DNA from: Lewinellaceae bacterium
Lineage (GTDB): Bacteria > Bacteroidota > Bacteroidia > Chitinophagales > Saprospiraceae
Assembly (NCBI GenBank): GCA_029976695.1
Contig: JARQTN010000078.1
Coordinates: 59,564 to 123,563, forward strand
Direction: 5' to 3'
DNA: 64,000 nt
Notes under the pieces: generated by a model
Seen by the model: only the letters and a program-made list of their open reading frames with translations
Database searches by the model: none
What the model was told of the DNA's origin: nothing
Made by a program: the position numbers and the translations under genes
Part shown: positions 40,890 to 49,187 of the stretch, one piece after another
Layout: the number at the start of each line of letters is the position of its first letter
Position numbering within the stretch: the first letter of the stretch is position 1

Positions 40890-41516
40890 TCATCCGGCAT
40901 TTTTATGCCTGTCCGCAAGGATTTTGATCACATCGCCAATCGAGAGCCCTTTTTCGACCAGCAAGACATCCAGGTGGTAAAGCAGATCAGCAGCTTCATT
41001 GAGCAGGTCCTCATCCTGCTGGCGCAACGCGGCAATGATTGTTTCCGTCGCTTCTTCACCCACTTTTTGTGCAATGCGCTCAATCCCCGAGTTGAATAAC
41101 CGGGTCGTGTACGATCCTTCGGGCAGGTCTGCCTTGCGCCCCTTGATCAGGGTGTCCAGCTGATGGATGAAATGCCCATCCCCGGGGGGTGTCGCAAAAC
41201 AGCTTTGAGAGCCCGTATGGCAGACAGGACCGGCGGGTTCCGCTTTGATGAGCAATGTGTCCGCATCACAGTCTGCATAGATCGCACTGACCCTGAGGAC
41301 ATTGCCGGATGATTCGCCCTTTTGCCAAAGGCGGTCACGGCTTCTGCTGTAAAACCATGCCAGGCCAGAATCAAGCGTCTTTTCAACAGCTTCCTCGTTT
41401 GCATATCCCAACATCAGCACCTGGCCGTTTGCATCATCCTGGACAATGACCGGTACAAGCCCTCCCTGTTTTGTGAAATCGATTTTTTCGATGTCTGTTT
41501 TTTCCCGGATTCTCAT
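40890..41516 (-). CDS. hisI: Bifunctional phosphoribosyl-AMP cyclohydrolase / phosphoribosyl-ATP pyrophosphatase
   Basis: 208 residues, a HisI-HisE fusion. HisI part (about 1-105): [31 protein letters not shown], and CHTGSQSCF with metal-binding Cys. HisE part (about 110-205): [23 protein letters not shown]. Performs steps 2 and 3 of histidine synthesis. Last gene of the his operon; overlaps hisF by 4 bases. Confidence 0.96.
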
Positions 41517-42268
41517 ATCCTCATGTTTATACCATGATCAATCAAATACTTCTTTAAATCTGTGATTTCGATCTCCCTGTAATGGAAAATGCTGGCAGCC
41601 AGCGCCCCCGTGCACCAGGTCTGGCTGAATACCTCGCGAAAATGATCCATTGTGCCGGCTCCGCCTGAGGCGATGACCGGGATCGGTACGGATTCACAAA
41701 CCTGCTGCAAAGCTTCCAGTGCAAACCCGGATTTGGTCCCATCATGGTTCATGGATGTGAACAGGATCTCGCCTGCACCACGTGAGGTGACTTCCCTTGC
41801 CCACTCCAGAAGCTTCCTTTCCGTCGGGATCCGGCCACCGGATACATACACCTGCCAGTGGTCTCCATGGTCTTCGGCATCGATGGCGACCACGACCGCC
41901 TGGCTTCCGAAGGCATGCGCCAGTTCATCGATCAGCCCTGGATTGCGAACCGCCGCCGAGTTGACAGTGACCTTGTCTGCACCGTTTTGCAGGATGGAAG
42001 CTGCCTGGCGCACATCACTGATGCCCCCGCCAATGGTGAACGGGATGTTCAGTTCTTTCGCGACCTCCTTTGCGAGTTCTGCGGCGGTGTTCCGGTTTTC
42101 ATGTGATGCGGTGATGTCCAGGTATACGAGTTCGTCCGCACCTGCACGGGAATACAGGGCCCCCAGTTCTACAGGATCCCCGGCATCCGTCAGGTTTTTG
42201 AATCGAATGCCTTTTACTGTTCGCCCGTCTTTCACGTCAAGGCATGGGATGATCCGCTTAGTCAGCAT
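41513..42268 (-). CDS. hisF: Imidazole glycerol phosphate synthase, cyclase subunit
   Basis: 251 residues. TIM barrel with [20 protein letters not shown] at the start, TVNSAAV and VIASGGAG phosphate-binding loops; the catalytic aspartates are at the usual sites (CLDVKDG and VAIDAED). Works with HisH: takes the ammonia made there and forms IGP and AICAR. Overlaps hisA by 11 bases and hisIE by 4. Confidence 0.97.
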
Positions 42269-42995
42269 CGGAAGAATGATTTAATTGCCGGTTGATCTCC
42301 ATCAGGTCGATTTTCTTTTCATAAATGGCCTTGCCCGCAATGACACCGTAAATACCGGTTCCCTTGAATTGCAGGATGTCGGATGCTTCACGCACACCTC
42401 CAGATACGATGACCTTCAGCCCGGGGTATCGCTCCAGAATCTGCAGGTACCCGGACCGGTCCACACCCGTCAGCGTCCCGTCCCTCGAAATATCCGTGGA
42501 AGTGACGTACTTTCCGCCTTCCCGGACGTAATTGTCCAGGCACTCCCAGAATGAAATGGCCGCATCATTTTGCCATCCGTGTGTTTTTAGTGTGTCCCCG
42601 TCCCTGTCGGCGGATAAAATGACCTTTTCAGGCCCCACATCTTGCAGCAAGGCATAGAAACGCTCCTCCTGCCTGATGGCAAATGTGCCAATATTCACCT
42701 GGTCGGCGCCTGCCATAAGGCAGGTGTGCACATCCTCCTCATTCCTGATCCCGCCTCCAAAGTCCACTTTCAGGCCGGTTCTGGATTTGATGCTTTCCAG
42801 GATATGGAGGTGGACGGGTGTTCCGGACTTTGCAGCTTCCAGGTCGACGAGGTGCAGGTGCGTACAGCCCGCTTCTTCAAAGATCCGCGCCTGGTCAACC
42901 GGGTCATGGTTGTATGTCGTCAACGCGTTGAAATCACCCTTGTGCAATCGGACACAAGCATTCCCAAAGAGGTCGATGGCGGGAAACAGGATCAT
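42258..42995 (-). CDS. hisA: ProFAR isomerase
   Basis: 245 residues. HisA barrel with [48 protein letters not shown] and VIVSGGVRE. The catalytic Asp residues at the barrel ends are present (PAIDL and TDISRDG). It overlaps hisF by 11 bases and hisH by 4 bases. Confidence 0.97.
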
Positions 42996-43600
42996 TGGTA
43001 AGCTTTTGATAGTTCAATGAAATTTTCCAGTATTTTTTGCCCGTAGGATCCGGATTTCTCCGGGTGGAACTGTACGCCGTAGAAATTGTCTTTTTCAAGG
43101 GCAGCGGAAAAGGGCAGGATGAACGCACTTTGTGCGCTCGTCCAGGGTGACAGTTCCGCATAATAGGAGTGTACAAAATAGGTAAATGCCGCTTCCCCGG
43201 TATCTCCGGGGATAATCCGGCTCCGGATGTGGTCAAGTTTATTCCAGCCCATGTGGGGCACTCGTTCGGATGACGCTGTCGGGATAAATCGTTTCACTTT
43301 CGCGGGAAAGATCCCCAGGCCATGCACATCTCCTTCTTCGGTGTGTGCACACATCAGCTGCATCCCCAGGCAAACCCCCAACACAGGTTGGCGCAGGTCC
43401 GGGACCAGCGTATCCAGGCCGGTGGATCTCAGTTTCTCCATGGCAGCAGAGGCCTGGCCCACCCCGGGGAAAATCACACTGTCCGCCTTCCGGATTTCTT
43501 CAGCATCTGCCGATAACGAAGGATCCAGGCCAATCCGCTGGAGGGCATTTTTCACGGAAGTGATATTTCCCGCACCATAATCAATGATCACGACTTTCAT
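42992..43600 (-). CDS. hisH: Imidazole glycerol phosphate synthase, glutaminase subunit
   Basis: 202 residues. Class I glutamine amidotransferase; nucleophile Cys in GVCLGMQLM, with His and Glu in [10 protein letters not shown]. Starts [20 protein letters not shown]. Partner of HisF. Overlaps hisB by 4 bases and hisA by 4 bases. Confidence 0.97.
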
Positions 43601-44712
43601 AGCAACCCTTTGGATGAGGGAATGTCAGCCTGCCCGGCCTCGCGCCCCACGGCAGTTTTCAGGCATCGTGCAAATGCCTTGAACACAGCTTCGATTTTGT
43701 GGTGTTCGTTCTTTCCTTCCACCCTAACGTGCATGTTGCACCTGGCCGTGTCACAAAAACTCTTGAAAAAATGGTGGAACATTTCAGTCGGCATGTCCCC
43801 GATCTTTTCGCGCTGGAATCGGGCATCCCAGACGAGCCATGGACGTCCCCCGAAATCAAGGCTTACGTGCGCTTCTGATTCGTCCATGGGCAGTACAAAA
43901 GCATACCTTGTGACCCCCTTCTTTGATCCTAATGCCTTGTCAAAGGCACTGCCCAGAGCCAGGCCTGTATCCTCGATGGTGTGGTGTTCGTCCACATGCA
44001 GGTCTCCGTCCACCTGGATATCCAGTTTGAAGCCCCCGTGCCTGGAGATCTGTTCAAGCATGTGGTCGAAAAAACCGAGGCCGGTCCGGATGTTTGCCAC
44101 AGCCGGCCCGTCAAGCCAGAGATCCACCAGGATCTTTGTCTCATTCGTTTTCCGCAAGATTTGTGCTGACCTCGGGATCGCCCTCAGGAAATGGTAGATC
44201 TCCATCCAGTCATTGGTCACATGGCTGCGTACCTCGTCAAGTTCCATTTCGATCACCGTTCCCGGAAGGACAAAATGGATTGCCTTGCACCCGAGGTTCC
44301 TGGCCAGCTCCACATCTGAGGCCCGGTCGCCGATGACGAATGAATTTTCCATGTCATACGCACCCTTGATGAAATGTGCCAGGAGGGCCGTACCCGGCTT
44401 CCGGGTGGGTGCATTTTCTTCTGGCAGTGTCCTGTCGATGATGACTTCCCTGAAGGTGATCCCCTCGTTTTCCAGGGCGCGCATCATCTTGTTGTGTGCC
44501 GGCCAGAATGTTTCTTCGGGAAATGAGGAAGTACCCAATCCATCCTGGTTCGTCACCATAACGAGCTCGTAATCCAGCTCCCTTGCGATATTTCCCAGGC
44601 CACGGAATACGCCCGGGATGAATTCCAGTTTTTCAAGGGAATCGACCTGGAAATCATCGGGCGGTTCGACGATCAAAGTGCCGTCCCGGTCAATGAACAG
44701 GAGTTTTTTCAT
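43597..44712 (-). CDS. hisB: Bifunctional histidinol-phosphatase / imidazoleglycerol-phosphate dehydratase
   Basis: 371 residues. HAD phosphatase part (about 1-165) with DRDGT (8-12) and [16 protein letters not shown] part (about 185-371) with [12 protein letters not shown] and the metal-binding histidines in DEHHTIED and HHFFKSFCD. Catalyses steps 6 and 8. The zinc loop of enterobacterial HisB-N (Cys/His in CPH and CDCRKP) is replaced by IDR and APTRKP, so the phosphatase lacks that zinc site. Overlaps hisC by 4 bases and hisH by 4. Confidence 0.96.
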
Positions 44713-45761
44713 AATTGCGCGTTTTGACTTGCTCGTGCGTAATGTTCAAGGGCTCTATGCAATGCCGTGTTTTCCCCGGGCGTCCCGACAGTAATTCGCA
44801 GGCAATTTTGGCAGGCCGGTTCGCGTCTCAGCCGGATAAAAATGCCTTTTTCCTTCAACCATTGATGCAGCCTTTTGGCATGCGAACAACGCACAAGGAG
44901 GAAGTTTGCATCTGATGGGTACACTTCTTCAACAAACGGGAATTGGGGGAGCTGTTGCTCAAGTTGCTGTCTTTCATTGACAATCTCCCGGATCTCCGCT
45001 TCCGGATACCCCTTTTTCTGCAGCAGGTCAAGGGCAATTTCACAACTTGCCTGACTCACATTGTAAGGCATTTTTACGGCTTCCAGGGTGTCTACGATCC
45101 ATCTTTGTGCAAATGTCATTCCGATCCGCAAGGCGGCAAGGCCGAATGCCTTGGAAAATGTCTGCATGACAATGAGGTTTGGGAACCGATCGATCAGCCC
45201 GATCTTAGAGGACCGTCCGGCAAAATCAATATATGCCTCGTCAATGACAATGATGCCCGGCCATTCTTGCAGGAGTTTCTCCATAAATGGCTCCGGCATC
45301 AGGTTGCCTGTCGGGTTATTCGGGCTGCACAGGAACAGCACCTTGGCCGGGGTTGTCAGGATCTCTTCGGCCAGTTTAACGGATGGCTGGTATGGTGCTT
45401 CCATCCGGAACGTATGCACTTTTACGGCGGAAACCCTCGCCGCATGGGCATACATCTCGAAGGCTGGTGATAACACCGAGATCGCGTCCTGCTGAGGGGT
45501 GCAGAAGGTGCGGATGATCAGGTCGATCGCTTCATCGCTGCCGTGGCTCAGGAAGATCTGGTCAGCCGGAAAATCCCTGAGCTTGCTGATTTCCTGCTGG
45601 AGCCTGGTATTGACCGGCTGTGGATACCGTCCCCACTTTTCGCTGTATGGATTCTCGTTGGCATCGATCCAGATCGGGTCGTTTTGATCTGCCAGGTATC
45701 TTTCGGGGAAATAGGGCCGCAATGGCCGGAGTTCCTCCCTGATCAAATTCGTGTAGTCCAT
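44709..45761 (-). CDS. hisC: Histidinol-phosphate aminotransferase
   Basis: About 350 residues from the ATG at 45761, one base after the hisD stop; frame extends further back into hisD, which is less likely. Type I PLP aminotransferase with the PLP Lys in [15 protein letters not shown], and DEAYIDF and SPNNPTG motifs. Converts imidazole acetol phosphate to histidinol phosphate. Confidence 0.96.
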
Positions 45762-45762
45762 A

Positions 45763-47052
45763 TCAACGTTTTTCAAGGTAAGCCCGGCGGATCGAGACAG
45801 CCCTTTGATGACCGACAAGTTCTTCGGATGCTGCGAGTGTTTCTACAGTCTGGCCAATGTGCAAGAGCCCTTCAGCGGTCACTTCCTGCACACTGATCCT
45901 TTTCATGAAAGTCTGTACGGAAACACCTGAATACGCTCTTGCATGATGGTTGGTGGGCAGTGTATGGTTCGGCCCTGCTGCATAATCCCCGATCGCCTCG
46001 GCGGACCATGATCCCAGGAAGATGGAACCCGCATTGCTGACGAGACTGACCTTATCCCGTGGATCCTTGCAGGCGAGGATGAGGTGTTCCGGGGCATAGG
46101 CATTGATCAGCTCAAATGCCTTCTCCAGGTCAGGTTCGTGGATCAGGCAGCTGTTTTCAAGTGCCTGCACCGCAATTTGTTTCCGGGGGAGATCCTCAAG
46201 TTGCTTGCGGATCGCTTGATCTGTCCTTTCAAGCATGTCTTCATCGTCGGTGACGAGGATGACCTGGCTGTCGGGACCATGCTCAGCCTGTGAAAGGAGG
46301 TCGGAGGCGATAAAGTCAGGATGTGCGGATTTGTCTGCATACACGAGGAGTTCTGAAGGCCCGGCGGGCATATCGATCGAGACACCGTCAAGCTGCACGA
46401 GTTCCTTTGCCTGGGTGACAAAAGAATTTCCAGGGCCAAAGATCTTGTAGACTCCGGGTATCGTGCGGGTGCCATAAGCCATTGCCGCAATAGCCTGGGC
46501 GCCACCAACCTTGAAGATATTCCTGATGCCTAATTCCGCGGCGATAAACAGGATTGCCGGGTGGATATTTCCACTGCTGTCCGGTGGTGTGCATACAATG
46601 ATCTCCGGGCATTCGGCGATCTTTGCAGGAATGCCAAGCATCATCAGCGTGGAAAGCAGGGGAGCTGTGCCACCGGGGATATACAGGCCCACCTTGTCGA
46701 TTGGCCTGAAGACCTGGTAAGCCTTGATGCCAGGCATGGTTTCGACGGACATGGACTCCGGCAGCTGCGCGCTGTGATAGCGTGAAATGTTCCCGATAGC
46801 CTGAAGGATGGCCTTTTTCAGGTCTGCAGGCACCAGGGCTCCTGCCTCCCTGATCTCTTTTTCCCCCACCCGCAGGTCATCGAGGCGCACGCCGTCAAAA
46901 CGTTCGGTGTATTTGATCAATGCCTCATCGCCATTTTTCCTGACTTCCATGAGGATCTGGGTGATGCCATCCTTGAGGTTTTCTTCGATGACAGGCCGCA
47001 CGAAAATTTCATTCCATTGAGACTTCGCCGGAGATTTGAGTTTTCGGATCAT
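45763..47052 (-). CDS. hisD: Histidinol dehydrogenase
   Basis: 429 residues, full length. Zinc and substrate residues are in [27 protein letters not shown], and [19 protein letters not shown]. Performs the last two steps (histidinol to histidine) with two NAD+. Follows hisG by a 10-base gap. Confidence 0.97.
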
Positions 47053-47062
47053 AAGTGTTGCA

Positions 47063-47926
47063 TTAAAGGATCATTTTTTCAATCGGGACAACCAGGATGC
47101 CTTCGGCTCCATGTTCCTTGAGCCTCGCCAGTATTTCCCAGAATTCTTCTTCCTGGATCACGGTGTGTACGGAACTCCATCCTTCCACAGCCAGCGGCAT
47201 GACTGTCGGGCTTTTCATCCCGGGAAGCAACTCGATGATATCGCTGATCTTCCCGTTCGGGACATTCATCAGGATATATTTGTTCAATTTGGCCTGCAGG
47301 GTTGCCTCAATGCGGAAAACCAGTTTATCCCTGATCGCCTCTTTTTCCGGGGAAAGGCTTTTTTTCTGGATCAGGCAAGCCTGTGATTTCAGCAGGACGA
47401 CCTTTTCTTCCAGCCCGTTTTTGAACAAGGTGCTTCCGGAGCTGACCAGGTCACAGATGTAGTCGGATAGCCCGATGTTCGGGGCAATTTCCACAGAACC
47501 GGAAATCGTATGGATTGAGGCGCTGATTTGGTTTTCATCCAGAAAGCTGCGAAGCGTGTTCGGGTAAGAGGTTGCGATTGTCTTCCCTTCCAGATCTTTC
47601 AGGTCCCGCAAAGGCCTGCCTTTCACTCCCGCAATCGAAAGCCTGCATTTTGAGAAGCCCAAAGGCAGGACCTTTTCCACTTCCTTTCCTGTTTCGACAA
47701 GCAGGTTCTCTCCGACAATCCCCAGGTCTGCAACCCCGCTTTCCACGTAGTTGGGGATATCCGAGTTACGCAGGTAGAGTACTTCGACCGGGAAGTTTGA
47801 TGCGCTGGCCTTCAGCTGGTCCCTCCCGTTGTTGATGTGGATATTGCACTTACGCAGCAAACCAATCGAATCATCGAAAAGACGCCCTGATTTCTGTACC
47901 GCGATTTTGAGTTTCTCTTTTTCCAT
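47063..47926 (-). CDS. hisG: ATP phosphoribosyltransferase (long form)
   Basis: 287 residues, long form with the C-terminal ACT-like regulatory domain (about 210-287: MNVPNGKISDIIELLPGM, PTVMPLAVEGWSSVH), so it is expected to be feedback-inhibited by histidine and needs no HisZ. Catalytic domain: KIAVQKSGRLFDDS, RNSDIPNYVESGVADLGIVG, GSTLFKNGLEEK. First enzyme of the operon, preceded by the attenuator. Confidence 0.97.
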   Translation of the reverse strand: MEKEKLKIAVQKSGRLFDDSIGLLRKCNIHINNGRDQLKASASNFPVEVLYLRNSDIPNYVESGVADLGIVGENLLVETGKEVEKVLPLGFSKCRLSIAGVKGRPLRDLKDLEGKTIATSYPNTLRSFLDENQISASIHTISGSVEIAPNIGLSDYICDLVSSGSTLFKNGLEEKVVLLKSQACLIQKKSLSPEKEAIRDKLVFRIEATLQAKLNKYILMNVPNGKISDIIELLPGMKSPTVMPLAVEGWSSVHTVIQEEEFWEILARLKEHGAEGILVVPIEKMIL

Positions 47927-47950
47927 AAGACTGTTTTTCTGCCAATTAAA

Positions 47951-47979
47951 AAAGGCTTACCGGACAGCGGTAAGCCTTT
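47951..47979 (-). terminator. his attenuator terminator
   Basis: A 12-base perfect stem AAAGGCTTACCG / CGGTAAGCCTTT with a 5-base loop, followed on the minus strand by a run of T, 24 bases before the hisG start. It follows the leader peptide stop. Part of its loop and 3' arm (CTGTCCGG) is fully complementary to the leader segment CCGGACAG, giving an alternative pairing that would block the terminator. Confidence 0.9.
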
Positions 47980-48005
47980 TTCATATATTGAATTGCACAA
48001 GACAC

Positions 48006-48065
48006 CTACCCCTGTCCGGATGAACAGCTCAGATGATGGTGATGTTGTGCATTTCGTGTATTCAT
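48006..48065 (-). CDS. hisL: Histidine operon leader peptide
   Basis: A 19-residue open frame, MNTRNAQHHHHLSCSSGQG, with four consecutive His codons, directly upstream of a terminator and hisG. The length, His run and position are those of his leader peptides in enterobacteria. Stalling on the His codons when charged tRNA-His is low would leave the stop-region segment CCGGACAG free to pair with CTGTCCGG in the terminator. It is too short to be found by ordinary gene prediction. Confidence 0.85.
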   Translation of the reverse strand: MNTRNAQHHHHLSCSSGQG

Positions 48066-48100
48066 ATGACTAATGTACAAAACATTCTAAATAAAAAAAT

Positions 48101-48123
48101 TCGGGAGCCGGAATGGCTCCCGA
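48101..48123 (-). terminator. Terminator of the tRNA-Phe gene
   Basis: Nine-base perfect stem TCGGGAGCC / GGCTCCCGA with loop ATTCC, followed on the minus strand by seven T. It ends the tRNA-Phe transcript 3 bases after the tRNA and precedes the his leader. Confidence 0.85.
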
Positions 48124-48126
48124 AAG

Positions 48127-48199
48127 TGGTACCTCCCAGAATCGAACTGGGGACACCAGGATTTTCAGTCCTGTGCTCTACCAACTGAGCTAAGGTACC
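48127..48199 (-). tRNA. tRNA-Phe (anticodon GAA)
   Basis: 73 bases without CCA: acceptor GGTACCT / AGGTACC, D arm GCTC...GAGC, anticodon stem CAGGA/TCCTG with loop CTGAAAA (anticodon GAA), variable GTGTC, T arm CCCAG-TTCGATT-CTGGG, discriminator A. All arms pair perfectly. CCA is not encoded. It lies between a promoter with a perfect -7 element and its own terminator, upstream of the his leader. Confidence 0.97.
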
Positions 48200-48276: not shown

Positions 48277-48359
48277 AAATTTCAAAACGGGATATTTTGT
48301 CAAGCCTGGAGATATTCTGTTTTCTGATTCAACCGATTTTTGATGAAATTGCATGCAAT

Positions 48360-49187
48360 ATGTTATCTCGAAGAATACTGACGATCATTGGATTGGTCCT
48401 TGCGATTTCAGCCTGGAGGGTCTTTTTTGAAAGTGACGGCCGGTTCATGCTCCCGCTCGTGATCTGCATCCTGGCAGGTGTCATAGGGTATACGTTCCAT
48501 CACCAGATTGACTGGTGGTGGGCAAGGAAAAGCCAACCTGTGCTTCCCGCTCCCATGAGGGCGATGCTCCATCAGTCAAGTCAATTTATTCACCAGATCA
48601 GCCCTGAGGACCGGGAAAAATTTGAAAAACGCATGGCACTCTGGGTCGCTGCCAAGGATTTTATCGGCAAGGGAATCGACAAGTTTCCCGAGGACATCAA
48701 GTACATTACGGCGATCTATCCTGTACTGCTTTCGTTTTACAGGGAACATTTCCTGTATGAGGGCCTGGACAGGATGGTATATTACCCGCATGCCTTCCTG
48801 ACCCCGCATATTCCCGATGATGTCCATTGTTATGAAGTGGAGGATGAAGACGGGGTGATGATCTTTTCGACAGAACAGATGATGGTTGGGCACATGCAGC
48901 CTAAAAAATATTATAACATCCTGATCCATGCATTTGCAGAAGCGCACCGGAGAAAGTTCCCGGGTGAAAGCTATCCCCGGCTACCACAGGATATCTGGAA
49001 CATCCTGAAAAGGATCAGTTTCATCCCAAAGGGAAAGCTGGATGATTTTATTGGCATTGTCCAGGACGATCCATGGCCCGTCGTCGTGCACCATTATTTT
49101 GTGTACCCTGAGGCATTCAAAGGAGTTGCCCCGGCACTCTTCACACAGGTCAGGGACTGGCACGAAAACGCCGGCTTGAGGGCATAA
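48360..49187 (+). CDS. MtfA-like membrane protein with degenerate peptidase motif
   Basis: About 275 residues from the ATG at 48360. Two N-terminal membrane helices (ILTIIGLVLAISAWRVFF, MLPLVICILAGVIGYTF) are followed by a domain that aligns by eye with MtfA (M90) metallopeptidases: YPVLLSF.., RMVYYPHAFLTP, and the end DPWPVVVHHYFVYPEAF. At the place of the zinc motif HExxH it has HAFAE (48927-48941), lacking the catalytic Glu and second His, and the downstream Glu is also changed. It is probably an inactive homologue with a binding role. It converges with clpB. Confidence 0.7.
   Translation: MLSRRILTIIGLVLAISAWRVFFESDGRFMLPLVICILAGVIGYTFHHQIDWWWARKSQPVLPAPMRAMLHQSSQFIHQISPEDREKFEKRMALWVAAKDFIGKGIDKFPEDIKYITAIYPVLLSFYREHFLYEGLDRMVYYPHAFLTPHIPDDVHCYEVEDEDGVMIFSTEQMMVGHMQPKKYYNILIHAFAEAHRRKFPGESYPRLPQDIWNILKRISFIPKGKLDDFIGIVQDDPWPVVVHHYFVYPEAFKGVAPALFTQVRDWHENAGLRA

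Follow-up and report, generated by a model that had tools for sequence, protein, structure and literature searches.

The DNA analysed here, a stretch of 64,000 nucleotides (the window), carries on its minus strand a complete hisGDCBHAF-IE operon whose genes overlap or nearly do so (Table 1). The listed start of the hisC reading frame is a TTG, and the true start may be internal. Upstream of hisG lies a predicted leader open reading frame (ORF) of 19 codons with four consecutive His codons, followed by an intrinsic terminator hairpin that ends 22 nt before the hisG ATG (47926). A tRNA-Phe gene with a terminator of its own lies directly upstream of the leader, 60 nt from its ATG, and a divergent gene for an M90-type metallopeptidase (48297-49187, plus strand) adjoins the tRNA gene.

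An earlier note, made from the letters of the sequence, had described a 19-residue leader with HHHH before hisG and two pairs of complementary segments, and we found all of these elements on the minus strand. The fold of the leader region has a z-score of -4.85 against dinucleotide shuffles in the window. We also scanned the window's own genome for further leaders by His-codon pattern and inspected 30 of 47 His-run places, of which only the present locus combined a terminator with a short His ORF.

Table 1. Features of the his locus in the window, in order of transcription
Feature	Position	Strand	Basis or remark
tRNA-Phe(GAA)	48126..48199	-	no second strong match to tRNA-Phe in the genome
tRNA-Phe terminator, parting the tRNA from the his leader	48100..48124	-	
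his leader peptide ORF (hisL-like), MNTRNAQHHHHLSCSSGQG, TAG stop	48006..48065	-	conserved leaders in relatives
Protector segment 1, core TGCACAA (codons 5-7), running on into the first His codons	48045..48051	-	p = 0.015
Regulatory codons CAT CAC CAT CAT (His8-His11), predicted stall site	48033..48044	-	His cluster conserved
Antiterminator 5' arm CCGGACAGGGGTAGGTGTC, across the leader stop codon	48001..48019	-	pairing, folding
TTGTGCA, partner of protector segment 1	47994..48000	-	pairing
Intrinsic terminator hairpin AAAAAGGCTTACCG-CTGTC-CGGTAAGCCTTTTT, then T run	47949..47981	-	folding, sequence
Antiterminator 3' arm, made up of the 5' arm and loop of the terminator (GGCTTACCGCTGTCCGG)	47960..47976	-	pairing, folding
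hisG, ATP phosphoribosyltransferase, long form with HisG_C	47063..47926	-	Pfam PF01634, PF08029
hisD, histidinol dehydrogenase	45763..47052	-	Pfam PF00815
hisC, histidinol-phosphate aminotransferase (class I/II aminotransferase)	44709..45818	-	Pfam PF00155, operon context
hisB, bifunctional (HAD phosphatase and IGP dehydratase)	43597..44712	-	Pfam PF00475, HAD-like
hisH, glutamine amidotransferase subunit	42992..43600	-	Pfam PF00117, operon context
hisA	42258..42995	-	Pfam PF00977, gene order
hisF	41513..42268	-	Pfam PF00977, gene order
hisIE	40890..41516	-	Pfam PF01502, PF01503

Alternative helices in the leader transcript

The terminator proposed before hisG is present, but its stem, given as 12 bases, comes to about 14 bp when A-U pairs are counted. 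Similarly, the perfect complementarity of CCGGACAG (48019-48012) and CTGTCCGG (47967-47960) stands, but the full helix is about twice as long: beyond these 8 bp and a one-base bulge it continues as GGUAGGU:GCUUACC to about 15 bp in total (p = 0.003 in the window against dinucleotide shuffles). This lower half covers the leader stop codon and removes the whole 5' arm of the terminator, and so does what is required of a working antiterminator. The antiterminator 5' arm lies outside the estimated reach of a ribosome stalled at His8-His11 and under a ribosome at the stop codon. The second proposed pair, the protector segment and its TTGTGCA partner, is complementary as described, and both pairing and folding place the antiterminator arm within this protector helix in untranslated RNA.

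We folded the leader in three states, representing the ribosome as a block from 17 nt upstream to 13 nt downstream of the first base of the A-site codon, a crude and approximate footprint. With the His codons blocked, the nascent window transcript folded into the antiterminator at -27.4 to -28.7 kcal/mol, and the free 3' part folded as the antiterminator with a z-score of -3.87. The full transcript kept the antiterminator for stalls at codons 8, 10 and 11; for a stall at codon 9 the minimum-energy fold was again the terminator (-29.7), so that the outcome there hangs on folding order. With the ribosome at the stop codon or absent, the terminator formed. Folding with and without a blocked His region, the check suggested in the earlier note, thus separated a 15-bp antiterminator from a terminator.

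Leaders of relatives were folded in these states as well. A stall in the middle of the His run left at least 6 pairs between the leader and the terminator 5' arm in 126 of 127 leaders, and the terminator formed in the untranslated state in 125 of 127. For a ribosome at the stop codon, a strict combination of fewer than 6 antiterminator pairs and a formed terminator was found in only 77 of 127; the window itself narrowly misses it, with 6 residual pairs in the nascent transcript and a fully formed terminator in the complete one.

Conservation and covariation of the leader

To compare relatives, we drew hisG loci from genomes of the same family and order, from named genomes and from a phylum sample, yielding 175 upstream regions that were non-redundant over their last 60 nt. 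A leader was scored as an ATG ORF with at least 3 His within five residues. Such a leader was found in 136 of the 175 regions, a count that includes close relatives, compared with a mean of 1.7 and a maximum of 6 in dinucleotide shuffles, which ignore shared ancestry, and 2 on the reverse strand; in about a fifth of the regions none was detected. The named loci, on which our phylum-wide statements are based, carry a leader in 53 of 69 cases, distributed over Saprospiraceae, Taibaiella, Flavobacteriales and Bacteroidales (Carboxylicivirga and others). Among named Cytophagales, Roseivirga (L055) and Nafulsella (L099) have a His-rich ORF after which a terminator was not detected.

The pairing potential of the leaders is conserved as well. 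Antiterminator pairing reached p ≤ 0.05 against dinucleotide shuffles in 96 of 126 leaders, and the protector helix did so in 70 of 126. Counting helices of 7 bp or more, the set holds 72 distinct antiterminators, whose sequences differ widely while pairing is kept. Examples are CUCAAGCG:CGUUUGAG from loci of flavobacterial type, GGAUGAGCU:GGCUUAUCC from those of Marinilabiliaceae type and GGCAGGUGGU:ACCAUUUGCC from Saprospiraceae. We counted covariation on anchored segments of 10+10 nt because MAFFT misaligned the terminator loop, and omitted the window on account of the one-base bulge in its helix. In the resulting 17 sequences of Saprospiraceae type, compensatory changes on both sides were seen for 6 of 10 antiterminator pairs and 90% of cells were paired, a level reached by 0 of 500 shuffles and falling to 43-45% when the register was slid by one column. 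A swap test gave a moderate result overall, with the own leader better than 95% of foreign leaders in 59 of 126 cases; in the window the own leader outdid all but 0.9% of them. The earlier note had proposed searching the hisG leaders of relatives, and had named a lack of His runs or paired arms there as speaking against its reading; in our set the run is kept and the arms covary.

These comparisons bear on whether the locus is regulated at all. Intrinsic terminators part transcription units and a tRNA gene lies just upstream of this one, as would be expected if the hairpin were a plain terminator next to a chance His ORF. We rejected this explanation, which we consider highly improbable, on the conservation of the leader upstream of hisG: His clusters far exceed the 1.7 expected, the antiterminator covaries, and the tRNA-Phe gene already has its own terminator in the window.

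A terminator was detected after 127 of 155 leaders, and this proportion, together with the 79 nt and the strong terminator that separate the window leader stop from hisG, argues against a leader that mainly controls hisG translation, be it by translational attenuation or by reinitiation, instead of transcription termination. The 28 of 155 His-rich leaders that lack a detected terminator would fit such a mode, and reinitiation from leader to gene has been proposed generally (PMC4833913); for the window we judge it very unlikely.

We therefore favor, at a probability of roughly 0.93, the reading of the window element as a ribosome-mediated transcription attenuator of the complete his operon. The anatomy that the earlier note ascribed to it, a His run, a terminator, a mutually exclusive antiterminator and a protector, is present in the window and in relatives. 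These elements, their complementarity, conservation and covariation come from sequence, and from them we infer leader translation, stalling, transcription-translation coupling and the read-through response. RNA polymerase would make the leader RNA with a ribosome behind it. When His-tRNA is ample, the ribosome would clear the four His codons, rest at the TAG and mask the antiterminator arm, allowing the 14-bp terminator to form and stop transcription before hisG. When His-tRNA runs short, the ribosome would stall at codons 8-11 and block the protector TGCACAA; CCGGACAGGGGUAGGU would then be free to form a helix of about 15 bp with the 5' arm and loop of the terminator, and polymerase would continue into hisGDCBHAF-IE. 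In an untranslated leader the protector hairpin would hold the antiterminator arm and the terminator would form.

tRNA-Phe linkage, promoters and variant leaders

The arrangement of tRNA-Phe and leader varies among relatives. In 14 Saprospiraceae-type loci (L002, L003, L004, L006, L008, L009, L010, L023, L024, L031, L036, L038, L041 and L042, the last from Flavilitoribacter nigricans) the leader ATG lies 0-25 nt past the end of tRNA-Phe, and in L010 the ATG directly follows the tRNA end annotated by ARAGORN, one base past CCA. The Bacteroidota -7 motif TAnnTTTG sits upstream of tRNA-Phe in these loci, and the gap contains neither the motif nor a terminator. The window, L029, L030, L037, L043, L045 and L047 have a longer gap with terminator-like sequence after the tRNA, and three of this group carry their own TAnnTTTG in the gap. 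In the window the exact motif is absent from the gap and one copy lies 49 nt upstream of the tRNA; a sigma-70 scan yielded nothing useful for promoters, the model being ill suited to this phylum. tRNA-Phe is the single strong match per genome in several Saprospiraceae relatives. A Phaeodactylibacter metagenome-assembled genome (L033) has tRNA-Phe and the attenuator terminator upstream of hisG and no leader ORF, apparently a natural leader deletion or an assembly error.

Of 139 loci, 77 have TAnnTTTG no more than 60 nt from the first leader ATG, compared with 4% in mononucleotide shuffles. The motif is often just 4-23 nt from the ATG, which implies that the 5' UTR there is very short or missing. 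At some loci the distance is only 4-10 nt, implying leaderless or near-leaderless leader mRNAs.

A second variation is duplication of the leader. In the non-redundant set, 13 loci have two His leaders in series, each followed by its own terminator: L022, L024, L052 and ten of Marinilabiliaceae type (L066, L071, L075-L078, L080, L083, L088 and L092). L065 also has two leaders, the first hairpin being unscored by the detector, and L098, likewise tandem, is closely related to L092. Tandem His leaders are present in what seem to be three or more distinct lineages. In the loci of Marinilabiliaceae type, between a few and about 20 nt separate the first T run from the start of the second leader, with no evident space for a promoter, and the two leaders apparently share one transcript.

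Single leaders also depart from the common form. Five Bacteroidales loci (L067, L069, L070, L074 and L095) have a 7-residue leader, MIHHHSI, with a terminator and a weak antiterminator (p about 0.14-0.36), and the geometry of the switch may differ there. His-rich leaders ending, for example, in VHHFHHSS, or of the form HHGVHHLHQGHHHA, occur without a detected terminator before hisG in L129, L131, L134 and several of L163-L183; these possibly represent a different, translational mode, or terminators missed by the detector. In Nafulsella turpanensis (L099) one peptide holds two His clusters, HIHLHHHH and HVHHHHH, at -172 to -88 relative to hisG, also without a detected terminator.

The short-gap loci suggest, from their sequence arrangement, that tRNA-Phe and the his leader form a tRNA-his transcription unit. 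A broader reading would join these arrangements: a single transcription unit of tRNA-Phe and his attenuator in Saprospiraceae, two complete attenuators in series on one transcript in Marinilabiliaceae, and in the window a variant whose tRNA is set apart from the leader by a terminator. We give this reading even odds. In the Saprospiraceae relatives the tRNA promoter would then drive the his operon, tRNA 3' processing would produce a nearly leaderless mRNA with the His sensor in its first codons, and the attenuator would decide whether the long transcript is completed. We found no description of a tRNA-Phe/his unit or of tandem His leaders in the open-licence papers searched.

Relation to known attenuators

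In enterobacteria, the his attenuator comprises a short leader ORF with a run of His codons (seven in hisL), a terminator before hisG, and mutually exclusive antiterminator and protector pairings. The window element shares this plan with hisL of E. coli and Salmonella (RF00514), whereas its leader has four His codons, its antiterminator arm extends across the leader stop, and many Bacteroidota leaders have a promoter motif of the Bacteroidota type upstream. Neither in the window nor in 20 relatives did any Rfam family reach its gathering score on the element. RF00514 His_leader scored 22.4 bits against a gathering threshold of 49, which places the window element outside that family. The leader-peptide attenuators RF00506 Thr_leader (37.9 bits against 55) and RF01692 Bacteroid-trp (23.4 against 49) gave below-threshold resemblances and were rejected; their regulatory codons are for amino acids other than His, whereas the codons here are for His and the genes that follow are his genes. 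Judged from its sequence, the window element is a predicted attenuator that works like the enterobacterial one without belonging to RF00514.

The Rfam searches of the window and 20 relatives also gave no match to a T-box or another riboswitch family at gathering threshold, and no T-box stood among the below-threshold matches in the window. This bears on whether something else could sense the leader RNA, be it free histidine, a protein or, as at a T-box, uncharged tRNA, the peptide being incidental. In Gram-positive bacteria, T-boxes and a DNA-binding regulator are known to control his genes (PMC9413887). At this locus such sensing seems most improbable: the reading frame and His codons are conserved, the arms are placed as for a stalled ribosome, and the antiterminator sequences vary widely with pairing retained.

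Attenuators in Bacteroidetes/Chlorobi are reportedly mentioned by Vitreschak et al. 2004. The earlier note called this regulation less commonly described in the phylum, which is fair without being absolute: transcriptomes of Flavobacterium psychrophilum, in the main text of PMC9723704, gave "clues" of attenuation by leader peptides ahead of amino-acid operons, and showed a hisG 5' element that is conserved within Flavobacteriaceae and has no hit in Rfam. That element precedes the same gene in the same phylum, with leader-peptide attenuation suggested. The present analysis supplies His codons, arms and covariation, which that main text does not give, and extends the pattern from Flavobacteriaceae, the family named there, to Saprospiraceae, Chitinophagales and Bacteroidales. 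Outside Proteobacteria, His-codon leaders are also found before hisS*/hisZ of Firmicutes, which are different genes in a different phylum; their describers considered a convergent origin and knew of no earlier leader-peptide system shown beyond Proteobacteria and Actinobacteria (PMC2965389).

Our results point to a his attenuator of the classic type that is common to much of Bacteroidota, where it has hardly been described. Translation-coupled attenuation of his, for which enterobacteria are the textbook case, appears widespread in this phylum too, with no Rfam model reporting it, and the set of covarying homologues permits a family model to be built. Bacteroidota have their own promoters and rarely use Shine-Dalgarno sequences, and the homologue set offers a direct reporter of transcription-translation coupling in these bacteria. 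The tRNA-Phe linkage and the tandem attenuators are more unusual than the attenuator itself and raise new, testable questions.
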